Assembly (NCBI GenBank): GCA_903882875.1
Contig: CAIRYQ010000120.1
Location: 1 to 64,000 of the forward strand
Direction of reading: 5' to 3'
DNA: 64,000 bases
From: an uncultured Spartobacteria bacterium
GTDB lineage: Bacteria > Verrucomicrobiota > Verrucomicrobiia > Chthoniobacterales > Chthoniobacteraceae
Positions 37,125-61,256 of this stretch are shown piece after piece. The number at the start of each line of letters is the position of its first letter. Within the stretch, counting starts at the first letter, position 1. Below the pieces are notes generated by a model. The model was not told where the DNA came from, made no database searches, and saw only the letters and a list, made by a program, of their open reading frames with translations. Made by a program: the position numbers and the translations under genes.

Positions 37125-37376
37125 GGAGGTTCCACGGAGTACTCTGGAAGTTCCAAAGGGTTCCGTGGAGGTTCCAAAGCGCCCCTTGGAACGTCCAAGG
37201 AGAACGCTGGAAGTGCCAAGGAAATCCTTGGGGATGCCAGCGGACTCCGTGGAAGTCGCACGGAAGTCCGTGGAAGTCGCACGGAAGTCCGTGGAGTGTG
37301 GCAAGGAGCCTTTGGAGTTTGCCGGGGATTCCTTGGAACCTCCAAGGAACGCGCCGGAGCTTCCGGGGAGTGTACC
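37125..37376. repeat. Array A: twelve 21-bp units
   Basis: Exactly 12 x 21 bp. Every unit begins GG; the common form is GGAAGTTCCAA followed by GGAANTCCGT. Units at 37251 and 37272 are identical, the others diverged. Within a unit, GGA recurs at positions 1 and about 12, so the motif also repeats about once per helical turn, and GGA/TCC dyads recur. No stop codon occurs across the array in nearly any frame, giving heptapeptide-repeat translations in all six frames; I regard that as a by-product. No spacers or flanking cas genes, so not CRISPR. Confidence 0.9.
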
Positions 37377-43345: not shown

Positions 43346-45115
43346 ATGAGCACCGGCATGCGTTGGATTTTGCCAGAGGCGGCTGATGCGGCCGCAGTCG
43401 CACGGCTCGTGAATGATGCGCAAATTGCGCCGTGGGCCGCGGGGATTCTCGTGCGACGCGGACTTTCGGAGCCGGAGGTTGCAGCGAAGTTCCTCAAGCC
43501 GATGCTCCGCACGCTGAGTGATCCCTTTCTGCTGCCCGCGATGGATGCCGCAGTCACACGCGTGCTCGCTGCGGTGGAAAAGCGCGAGCGCATCGTGCTC
43601 TACGGCGACTACGATGTGGATGGCGTGACCTCGCTCACGCTGCTCACGCGGCTGCTGCGCGCATACGGCGCGGAGGTCGCGACGTTCCTGCCGCATCGCG
43701 TGGACGAAGGCTACGGGCTTTCCGCGGATGGCGTCGCCCGATGCGTCGAGGAGCACCGTCCACAACTGCTCATCGCCGTGGACTGCGGCACGACTTCCGT
43801 CGCGGAAATCACGAGCCTGCGCGAGGCAGGCGTGGATGTGATCGTGCTCGATCACCACGAGCCGAAGGACGAACTGCCGCCCGCAGTGGCCATCGTGAAT
43901 CCGAAAGTGCGCAGTGCGCAGTGCGGAGTGGGGAATGGAGACAGCGCAAGCGGCGCATCGGATCACTCCGCACTCCGCACTCCGCACTCCGCATTTGAAT
44001 ACCTGTGCAGCGCCGGCCTCGCGTTCAAAGTCGCACATGCACTGCTGAAGCGCCGCCCGCTCGCGGGCTTCGACATCAAGGATCTGCTCGACCTCGCCGC
44101 CATCGGCACGGTCGCCGATGTTGTGCCGCTCGTGGAGGAGAACCGCATCTTCGTCCGCGCCGGACTCGATCGCATACCACAGTCGCGCTGGCCGGGCGTG
44201 CGCGCTCTCGTCGAAGTCGCGGGTCTGCGTACGCCACTGCGCGCCGTGGACATCGGCTTCGGCATCGGCCCGCGGCTGAACGCGGCGGGCCGTCTCGATT
44301 CCGCGACCGCCGCGCTGGAGCTGCTGCTCACCGACGACCCAACACGCGCGCAATCCCTCGCGCGCTCTCTCGATCAGCAGAACCGTGAGCGACGCGCCAT
44401 CGAGGACGAAGTGCTCGGCATGGCGGGCGCGCAAATCATCGGCGCGTATGATCCCACGGGCGACGCGGCCATCGTCGTCGGCGATGCGGGCTGGCATCCC
44501 GGCGTCGTCGGCATCGTAGCCTCGCGGCTGCAGCGGCGCTACCACCGCCCGACATTTGTGATCGGCTTCGATACGATGGGAATTGGCAAGGGGAGCGGAC
44601 GCAGCATCGAAGGCTTCTCACTCGTCGCCGCGCTCGCACGCTGCGCGCCGCTGCTGGAAAAATTCGGCGGGCACGAGATGGCCGCGGGGCTCACGATGCG
44701 GCAGGAAAATTTCGCAGCCTTCCGCGAAACGTTTGCGCAGGCCGCGCGCGAGATGATCGCGCCGGAAAATTTGCAGCGCACGCTGCGGCTCGACGCCGAG
44801 CTGCGCCTCGCCGATGTGAATCTCGATCTGCTCGACGAGCACGACGCGCTCCAGCCATTCGGCACGGCCAACCACCAGCCCGTCTTCTTCACGCGCGGCG
44901 TCACGCTCGCCGGCGAGCCGCGCATGATGAAGGACAAGCACTGGTCGTTTAATTTCCGCCAAGCCCGCGCGCAGTGCCGCGCCGTGTGGTGGAATGCCGC
45001 CGAGGAAATCCTCCCGCCGCTCCCGTGGGACATCGCCTACACCGTCTCGCGCAATGAATGGAACGGCAACGTGAGCGCGCAGCTCGAACTCCGCGCCGTG
45101 CGCGCGGCGGCGTAA
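43346..45115 (+). CDS. recJ: Single-stranded-DNA exonuclease RecJ
   Basis: 589 residues. DHH-family phosphoesterase: motif I LYGDYDVDGVTS (D88, D90, D92), motif II IAVDCGTTS, motif III DHHEPKDELP (D169-H170-H171), the DHHA1 motif FGGHEMAAGLTM with GSGRSIEGF, and the C-terminal OB-fold. It degrades single-stranded DNA 5' to 3' in repair. Between IVNPK and FEYLCSAGLAFK, where relatives have a short loop, residues 188-216 are encoded by a hairpin element inserted in frame. The essential motifs are untouched, so the enzyme may still work. Confidence 0.94.
   Translation: MSTGMRWILPEAADAAAVARLVNDAQIAPWAAGILVRRGLSEPEVAAKFLKPMLRTLSDPFLLPAMDAAVTRVLAAVEKRERIVLYGDYDVDGVTSLTLLTRLLRAYGAEVATFLPHRVDEGYGLSADGVARCVEEHRPQLLIAVDCGTTSVAEITSLREAGVDVIVLDHHEPKDELPPAVAIVNPKVRSAQCGVGNGDSASGASDHSALRTPHSAFEYLCSAGLAFKVAHALLKRRPLAGFDIKDLLDLAAIGTVADVVPLVEENRIFVRAGLDRIPQSRWPGVRALVEVAGLRTPLRAVDIGFGIGPRLNAAGRLDSATAALELLLTDDPTRAQSLARSLDQQNRERRAIEDEVLGMAGAQIIGAYDPTGDAAIVVGDAGWHPGVVGIVASRLQRRYHRPTFVIGFDTMGIGKGSGRSIEGFSLVAALARCAPLLEKFGGHEMAAGLTMRQENFAAFRETFAQAAREMIAPENLQRTLRLDAELRLADVNLDLLDEHDALQPFGTANHQPVFFTRGVTLAGEPRMMKDKHWSFNFRQARAQCRAVWWNAAEEILPPLPWDIAYTVSRNEWNGNVSAQLELRAVRAAA
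43907..43993. repeat. Hairpin element of GTGCGGA heptamers inserted in recJ
   Basis: Left arm GTGCGCAGTGCGCAGTGCGG and onward; right arm CACTCCGCACTCCGCACTCC and onward; they pair around a loop of about 23 bp. The unit is a degenerate 7-mer. The element keeps the recJ frame and adds about 29 residues. Confidence 0.8.
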
Positions 45116-45571
45116 TCCGTAGCCGCTGACGGAAGGAAGCGGGCTGATCTTCCTGCCGACGCTTACTGAGTTTCGCGTCACCGCCTCATGCTTTCCCTCA
45201 CCCGGAGGGTGAAAGGAAATTAGCCGGTGGCGTGAGCCACCGGATCACGTCGAAAAATGAATGCGCCCCGAAGGGTGCGCTGGAAAACGGATGGTTTCCG
45301 TCGCCAACTTCGTGGCGGATTCCGCTCTCCATCCCATTCCGGGGGCGTTGCCCCCGGCTAGTAGCCATTGGCCCTTCGGGTCATGAACCAGTCACGCGGG
45401 ACTCCATAATCCACGACCGATCGCCCAACAAGCGAGAGCGCCCGCCTCCTGCCGTCGGCGGCTACGGATTACGTCGCCGCCTTCGCCATTACGATGCAAG
45501 GAGCCGTCTGTCCCACTCCGCCTGCGTGCCGCTGTTAGTGTGAGCACGCATTTCCCCACCAACCCACCCCG
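45116..45571. repeat. Cluster of hairpin repeats between recJ and the sulfatase gene
   Basis: No gene seen. In order: GTAGCCGCTGACGGAAGG (45118 on) pairing with CTTCCTGCCGACGCTTAC (to 45165), also a probable recJ terminator; a stem TTTCCCTCACCC/GGGTGAAAGGAAA (45192-45219); CCGGTGGC-GTGA-GCCACCGG (45224-45243); GCGCCCC-GAA-GGGTGCGC (45263-45280); CCGGGGGC-GTT-GCCCCCGG (45339-45357); and an inverted copy of the first motif (45440-45468). The last and first together form a long-range inverted pair around the cluster. The sulfatase promoter should lie near the right end. Confidence 0.7.
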
Positions 45572-48739: not shown

Positions 48740-49096
48740 AAGCACATGCTTTTTCTGTGAAAGCATGTGCTTTTACAATGAAACCACATGCTTCTTTCAT
48801 AAAGACATGTGTTTTTATTATAAACGCATGTGTTTTTGACATAAATTCATGTGCTTGTGTTCTGATTTCATGTGCTTTTTATCTGAACACATGTGCTTTT
48901 ATTTAATACGCATCTGATTTTATCACGCACACTTGTGCTTTTTCCTCATAAGCATCTGCCTTTATCACCAACGCATGTGCATTCGTTTTGAAAGCATTCG
49001 CTTTTATGATAGATGCGTGTGCTTCTGTTAAAAAAACATCCGTCTTTTGTGTAAAAGCACTTGCTTTTTTCACAAAAGCATGTGCATTTTCCGTGT
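48740..49096. repeat. Array C: seventeen 21-bp units with CANNTG core and T-tract
   Basis: 17 x 21 bp with no spacing error; common form AAGCATGTGC then TTTTTTCATAA. Position 4 is C and position 9 is G in all 17 units; 13 units have CANNTG there, two of them (units 1 and 3) as CACATG, the reverse complement of CATGTG. A T-rich tract follows in each unit, so tracts lie two helical turns apart, in phase. Read in step with the unit, seven early units end in TGA or TAA, so it is not coding in that frame. Two degenerate units follow to about 49138. The region is AT-rich amid GC-rich DNA. Confidence 0.92.
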
Positions 49097-49845: not shown

Positions 49846-50245
49846 GGGAAATTCCGGCGACGGCTCCTTTTGAACTACGAAGGGCACCAAGGGCACGAAG
49901 GAAGAGGCTCAGAAAGTTCGGGGATTGTTTGCGCGGTGGAACGCGTCGCTCCGCGCGCGTTTCGGCGTGGATGGCAAGGCTTGCCTGCAATCGGAGGAAG
50001 CGCGCGCGGAGCGACGCGCTCCACCGGCGCTGACGCGCCTTCATCCAAGAACGGCCGCGGTTTGAGTGAAACCGCGGTAGCGGGGGCTTGCATGGGGATT
50101 GCATCCCGCGGTGTGCCGCTGTTACCCCTTCACCATCCCATCCACACCTGCGACAAACCATGCCGATTCCCCTTCCCTCACGACTCCCACGCCGGGCGCG
50201 CACGGTTCGCGGCGCGGATGACTCCGGCCGCGCCCGTACCGCAAG
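49846..50245. repeat. Intergenic hairpin cluster before the heptose genes
   Basis: No gene recognised. At 49870-49901 stands a single arm with GGGCACCAAGGGCACGAAGG. At 49934-50025 is a strong inverted repeat: GGTGGAACGCGTCGCTCCGC and onward pairs with GCGGAGCGACGCGCTCCACC, with GGCAAG/CTTGCC inside the loop. At 50055-50077, CCGCGGTTT-GAGTG-AAACCGCGG is a perfect 9-bp stem without a T-run. Confidence 0.7.
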
Positions 50246-51543: not shown

Positions 51544-51550
51544 CGATGCC

Positions 51551-51629
51551 GTGACTGGTGAATGGTGACTAGTGACTGGTTTGGTCGCCGGACTGCTCCA
51601 CCAATCACTTTTCACCAGTCACCAGTCAC
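51551..51629. repeat. Hairpin element of GTGACTG heptamers between gmhA- and gmhB-like genes
   Basis: Left arm GTGACTGGTGAATGGTGACT and onward (51551-51582); right arm CACCAATCACTTTTCACCAG and onward (51599-51629), its near reverse complement. Loop about 16 bp. It lies inside what is otherwise a tight operon, so it will form a large hairpin in the transcript. Confidence 0.75.
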
Positions 51630-51653
51630 CGCCTCAACAGCACACAGCACTCC

Positions 51654-61157: not shown

Positions 61158-61160
61158 GCG

Positions 61161-61256
61161 AATTTAAGATTTCAGATTTCAGATTTGGGATTTCAGATTT
61201 CCCGCTCGCCCGGAGCCCGGAGAAATCTTAAGTCTTAAATCGCAAATCTTAAATTC
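61161..61256. repeat. Hairpin element of AGATTTC heptamers
   Basis: Left arm AATTTAAGATTTCAGATTTC and onward (61161-61201), right arm GAAATCTTAAGTCTTAAATC and onward (61222-61256), near reverse complements around a loop of about 20 bp. It ends 1 bp before the ATG of the DUF721 gene, so translation initiation of that gene occurs at the foot of the hairpin. Confidence 0.8.

Follow-up and report, generated by a model that had tools for sequence, protein, structure and literature searches.

The window, i.e., the complete stretch of 64,000 nucleotides that was analyzed here, has a G+C content of 62.8% and derives from the 5.78-Mb draft genome of a freshwater bacterium in the Chthoniobacteraceae/Spartobacteria branch of Verrucomicrobiota, whose closest named relatives are metagenome-assembled genomes. 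It encodes the DNA-repair exonuclease RecJ (Table 1), for which a search of its own genome returned one match, indicating a single-copy gene. The protein is intact, with the DHH, DHHA1, and RecJ_OB domains all present (Pfam), and is homologous to PDB entries 5f54, 8y30, and 2zxo.

Within recJ, we identified a 92-base hairpin that is read in frame (43905-43996). Its arms are 85% complementary, and Tandem Repeats Finder independently detected a period of 7 in each of them. The hairpin is predicted to fold stably as RNA (-56.7 kcal/mol, z = -6.1) as well as DNA (z = -5.4), and shuffled versions never folded as well. A previous sequence-only reading of this DNA had placed a heptamer hairpin at 43907-43993, in a register that avoids stop codons; both points were confirmed, with slightly wider edges for the hairpin and with a reading frame that stays open through it, leaving RecJ intact at 589 aa. 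At the scan threshold, period-7 stretches in the window were limited to the two recJ arms and to positions 61160 and 45628, compared to none in 9 of 10 runs with first-order Markov versions of the window and 1 in the remaining run. The kinship with intergenic elements that had also been claimed holds for the design, which is alike in two other hairpins of the window, but not for the heptamers, which differ (GTGACTG and ATTTCAG). Elements built from the GTGCGGA word were found elsewhere in the genome.

Table 1. Coordinates of recJ, the parts of its hairpin, and two further heptamer hairpins in the window.
Feature	Position	Strand	Basis
recJ, single-stranded-DNA-specific exonuclease, 589 aa	43346..45115	+	ORF, Pfam, PDB homology
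5' arm, tandem AGTGCGC/AGTGCGG heptamers, 33 nt	43905..43937	+	inverted-repeat and tandem-repeat scan
Loop, 26 nt, unlike loops of other elements	43938..43963	+	loop comparison
3' arm, tandem CACTCCG (reverse complement of CGGAGTG), 33 nt	43964..43996	+	inverted-repeat and tandem-repeat scan
Inserted peptide V188-F217 (VRSAQCGVGNGDSASGASDHSALRTPHSAF), predicted disordered	43907..43996	+	RecJ alignment, AlphaFold model
Intergenic hairpin, heptamer GTGACTG, stops on one strand, between two ORFs	51545..51635	.	repeat scans
Hairpin, heptamer ATTTCAG/ATTTAAG, no frame open through	61160..61256	.	repeat scans

An alignment of RecJ from 29 related genomes revealed the segment in only three species, namely the window genome and its relatives G004 (92% identity) and G003 (85%); all RecJ sampled outside this clade, including those of other genera, lack it and join the residues NPK to YLC by a short linker. 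This linker comprises 6-9 residues in 23 measured RecJ proteins versus 31-34 in the three carriers. Since it measures 31 residues in the window protein, the net gain is 22-25 residues rather than the addition of about 29 that had been proposed. By comparison with these orthologs, the hairpin is identified as an in-frame insertion in recJ, which most simply would have entered the gene once, in the ancestor of the three species, displacing a few linker residues. The records of the two other carriers, BJFP01000079 and JANXZI010000526, are independent assemblies, making an assembly artifact unlikely. No clear target-site duplication, as looked for in MITEs, was found in recJ relative to the empty orthologs; the insertions are, however, old. 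In the AlphaFold model, RecJ has a mean pLDDT of 91.5, whereas residues 192-210 fall below 50, and this segment sits between the strand that follows motif III (182-184) and a helix (222-236). The model therefore agrees with the earlier placement of the insert before the helix following motif III and with the suggestion of a surface loop, as it predicts that the insert forms a disordered loop while the rest of RecJ is well folded. The insert also evolves faster than its surroundings, with amino acid identities of 0.67 and 0.47 compared to 0.94 and 0.87 in the remainder of RecJ.

The divergence of the insert affected both arms. In G003, most units of either arm read AACGCGG/AGCGCGG, which corresponds to a T-to-C change relative to the AGTGCGG of the window. 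Among the three sequences, five pairs of the stem are altered on both sides, and 88.9% of cells are paired, compared to 29-60% when the partner arm is slid. This pattern, although drawn from three sequences only, is suggestive of a concerted change of both arms between species.

The recJ hairpin is one of many such elements in its genome. At a threshold of 15/16 identity, 37 period-7 arrays were detected in a genome sample of 1.606 Mb that was partly picked for earlier matches, and none in its Markov version. Other periods yielded 0-4 arrays (periods 4-6, 8, and 10-13), 11 arrays (period 9), or 22 arrays (period 14, i.e., twice 7). The four longest stretches, which were examined first (719 kb), contained 18 period-7 arrays and at most 7 for any other period, the maximum being period 14. 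The elements thus share with the heptanucleotide tandem repeats of bacteria (SSR class) a genome-wide occurrence of tandem 7-nt units in excess over other periods. Typically, an arm consists of approximately 3-5 tandem heptamers, and the element often is a hairpin of roughly 60-140 nt with an unrelated loop, sometimes a single array. Hairpins account for 16 of 47 elements, with a median arm of 30.5 nt and a median loop of 27.5 nt, and the words include AGTGCGG, ATTGCGG, ACCGGAT, GTGACTG, AATGACG, AACGTCC, and ATTTAAG, among others. Within one word family, the outer edges of elements look alike. A simple MITE with a conserved interior was rejected as a description, because members of the CCGGATA family do not have related loops, save for two copies within one gene.

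Approximately 34 of the 47 elements fall inside long open frames whose third codon positions are rich in G+C. Some of these elements are located close to the start of a gene, possibly upstream of its true start codon. Pfam-confirmed host genes encode NAD synthetase, DXP reductoisomerase, a UvrD-like helicase, a U32 peptidase, an ABC transporter, and a protein kinase. Stops in the sense frame are absent from all 41 in-gene arrays, which partly follows from the definition of an open frame. The antisense and intergenic counts are free of this circularity: 7 of the in-gene arrays have a stop on the antisense strand only, and 11 of 15 non-coding arrays contain a stop on a strand. Words in which both strands contain stops are confined to intergenic sites. 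The element class is hence both genic and intergenic, with genic copies in stop-free orientations only. Together with the existence of filled and empty orthologous sites, the in-gene majority bears out the earlier proposal that these elements move or originate inside genes, where they are tolerated.

Orthologous in-gene sites were compared among species, leaving out the site in the ABC transporter gene, for which too few orthologs were available. Different pure heptamers occupy matching linkers in nadE, dxr, the U32 peptidase gene (two sites), a GlcE-like gene, and the locus C23:66448. In NadE, the linker contains TPHSALR (window genome), FKIQNSK (G004), or IRDSQSAIRNP (G001); at C23:66448, it contains TPHSALR, VPRSALP (G003), or NPKSEIR (G001 and G007), whereas G002, G006, and G009 have an empty or short site. 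Outside the genus, the linkers at these sites are mostly short or unrelated, with G012 as an exception. Array lengths at shared sites are near-constant. Furthermore, when consensus words were compared in the register set by the gene flanks, rotation 0 gave 187 matches versus a mean of 75 (46-100) for rotations 1-6 across 45 species pairs with different words, which share species and are therefore non-independent; rotation 0 was best or tied in 33 of these 45 pairs. In dxr, however, the register varies among species, which counts against in-place rewriting. Identity is 0.94 among the units of an array, a value biased upwards because arrays were selected for looking periodic, compared to 0.62 between species at orthologous positions. 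The latter falls inside the range found at fourfold-degenerate sites of the host genes (0.38-0.86). Near-neutral divergence between species combined with uniformity inside the array points to concerted evolution: judged from these alignments, the arrays are rewritten in place at orthologous sites, with register and length largely kept. It should also be noted that the U32 peptidase loci L319 (G002) and L320 (G006) contain a full in-frame hairpin of the AAATAGC type where other species hold a single array; single-array and hairpin forms thus interchange at one site.

With regard to the spread of these elements, a repeated TCCGN3 pattern matched 56 times in the window genome, 50 times in G007, approximately 20 times each in G003, G004, and G008, and 0-2 times in G009, G002, and G006, and a reversed control pattern had no match in these genomes of the genus. 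Across the phylum, matches were patchy, occurring in 39 of 115 sampled genomes, a few of which matched the control as well. Two of the phylum genomes, G053 and G112, have a genome-wide dialect of their own, as nearly all of their listed TCCG arrays mix TCCGTTC and TCCGTTT.

We consider it probable, although with substantial reservation, that the recJ hairpin is a copy of a genus-wide element class that is rewritten in concert while its length is preserved, and that it would be neutral or nearly so for RecJ. Transient slip-and-realign between adjacent heptamers at replication could rewrite an array, and, once the hairpin has formed in single-stranded DNA, one arm could serve as template for its partner; as expected from known replication chemistry, both processes conserve length. 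Changes by one unit (7 nt), in contrast, would shift the frame and be purged. Given this frame shift and the near-constant array lengths at shared sites, homogenization within genes must conserve length, and gain or loss of units was rejected as the homogenizing step. Moreover, a heptamer vocabulary common to unlinked loci and the presence of lineage dialects imply copying between loci in addition to local homogenization. Tentatively, and with more doubt than confidence, we propose that an active process rewrites whole arrays of essential genes in register at a fixed length and homogenizes unlinked loci into dialects. If this is true, a process of non-coding DNA repeatedly re-encodes the linkers of housekeeping proteins.

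A different history would be one of insertion hot spots, in which each species would lose arrays and independently acquire new elements of other heptamer families, the tolerated linkers being the same throughout. Such a history would fit the first U32 peptidase site, which holds an array in G002 and none in its near sister G006 and was possibly hit twice, the AATTCAA arrays, whose loci differ between G003 and G004, and the discrete vocabularies common to several loci. Against this history count the preserved heptamer register relative to the gene flanks, the nearly constant array lengths, the word common to sister species at the second U32 peptidase site (window genome, G003, and G004) and at C23:66448 (G001 and G007), and the existence of intermediate words (AATCCGC, AATCCGA, AATCCAA, and AATTCAA). 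We therefore regard hot spots as unlikely, albeit worth serious consideration. It appears improbable that a Y1 (RAYT) transposase mobilizes the elements in the manner of REPINs, with single arrays as remnants. The layout, with paired inverted arms, unrelated loops, and common single arms, matches, and Y1_Tnp genes are present in 10 of 10 genomes of the genus; the GTAG tag, however, is absent from the heptamer hairpins and marks a separate family, and gene number does not track array number, with 3 Y1 genes in the window genome and 2 in G007, which have the most arrays, and 6 in G009, which has none. The inspected RAYT genes also have no heptamer hairpin close by, the nearest being 1.3 kb away. 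As neither gene counts nor neighborhoods fit, Y1/RAYT was rejected as the mover.

Selection on the recJ hairpin itself, either as an RNA pausing or decay site or as a useful protein loop, would account for its retention in three species with arms that still pair, but homogenization would likewise predict this pairing. The hairpin is absent from all other RecJ sampled, and the rapid divergence of the inserted residues described above argues against a function, which we consider very improbable. No support was found for the view that the segment is a normal constituent of RecJ or an error of assembly, and both are refuted by orthologs without the segment and by the diverged form in the two independent sister assemblies, leaving this explanation with practically no probability.

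To our knowledge, palindromes that encode protein have been described chiefly in Rickettsia and Wolbachia. Families of Rickettsia palindromic elements (RPE) each have one consensus over the length of the element. The recJ hairpin resembles RPE and their Wolbachia counterparts in being a stem-loop in frame within a protein gene, whereas the heptamer elements share a principle rather than a consensus, as words vary by element and species and loops are unrelated. According to the excerpts of the literature used here and below, RPE are stem-loops of approximately 100-150 bp that occupy intergenic sites and also, in frame, conserved protein genes, and their insertion is tolerated, the gmk product being active (PMC2229807). 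Tandem heptamers, in turn, were reported from Geobacter metallireducens, where 49 elements with four tandem GGGACCG units are found both between genes and inside them, at times with several in one gene, and another class consists of five MTYCTGA heptanucleotides; with one word per class, these were interpreted as regulator-binding or RNA elements (PMC2700814). The elements described here are likewise genic and intergenic, and the orthologous in-gene comparison and word switching add to what the excerpts of that report contain. Genome-wide tandem heptamers of Xanthomonas (GGGAATC) and Nostoc (GGGGA(C/T)T) usually comprise four units with occasional inverted pairs, form G-quadruplexes, and are under-represented in coding regions (PMC4692102). 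The TAACTGA repeats of Beggiatoaceae, also genome-wide, are direct repeats of one word with rare related heptamers; they are mostly intergenic near start codons and, within ORFs, present their stop-free strand (PMC4679880). In contrast to these systems, which, unlike that of Geobacter, were reported as mainly non-coding, most arrays of the window genome are genic, and several words coexist, in contrast to Xanthomonas and Nostoc. REPINs, in which inverted repeat pairs with a spacer form hairpins and singlets are remnants (PMC3116915), resemble the 16 hairpins in their inverted repeats around a spacer. However, REP sequences are defined by a GTAG tag (PMC3733652), and the arms described here are heptamer arrays without it, with many genic copies.

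In the open-licence literature, no such element was described in Verrucomicrobiota, and its excerpts on the compared systems do not describe word switching at conserved in-gene sites; heptamer repeats in general are little studied (PMC4692102). The genus unites both kinds of element, with in-frame heptamer hairpins and arrays in many housekeeping genes and concerted word changes at orthologous sites. Its ten genomes constitute a natural experiment on the homogenization of tandem DNA under a strict frame constraint, which bears on selfish or slippage-born DNA as a source of protein linkers. For annotation, it should be considered that peptides such as TPHSALR, NPQSAIR, and NSKFKIQ are translated repeats here.

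Furthermore, other repeats were observed in the vicinity. GTAG-tagged REP-like sequences (GTAGCCGC(C/T)GACGG..AGG..GCGGGC) are located at window positions 45119, 45448, and 37572, one copy directly following the recJ stop codon and one 330 nt further on in the opposite orientation. The 1.6-Mb sample contains 9 copies of this family, and a further GTAGCCGC site adjoins the RAYT gene of contig C92. An AT-rich region at 48740-48980, in G+C-rich surroundings, is built of tandem repeats of 21/42 nt and contains CACATGTG inverted repeats. At 37130-37295, there are an adjacent inverted repeat with 61-nt arms and a perfect 21-nt tandem repeat (TCCGTGGAAGTCGCACGGAAG). Finally, a CGCG-rich inverted repeat with 30-nt arms of 93% complementarity is located at 49934-50026, and a motif resembling it (CGCGCGGAGC...) recurs in C18:1249-1357.
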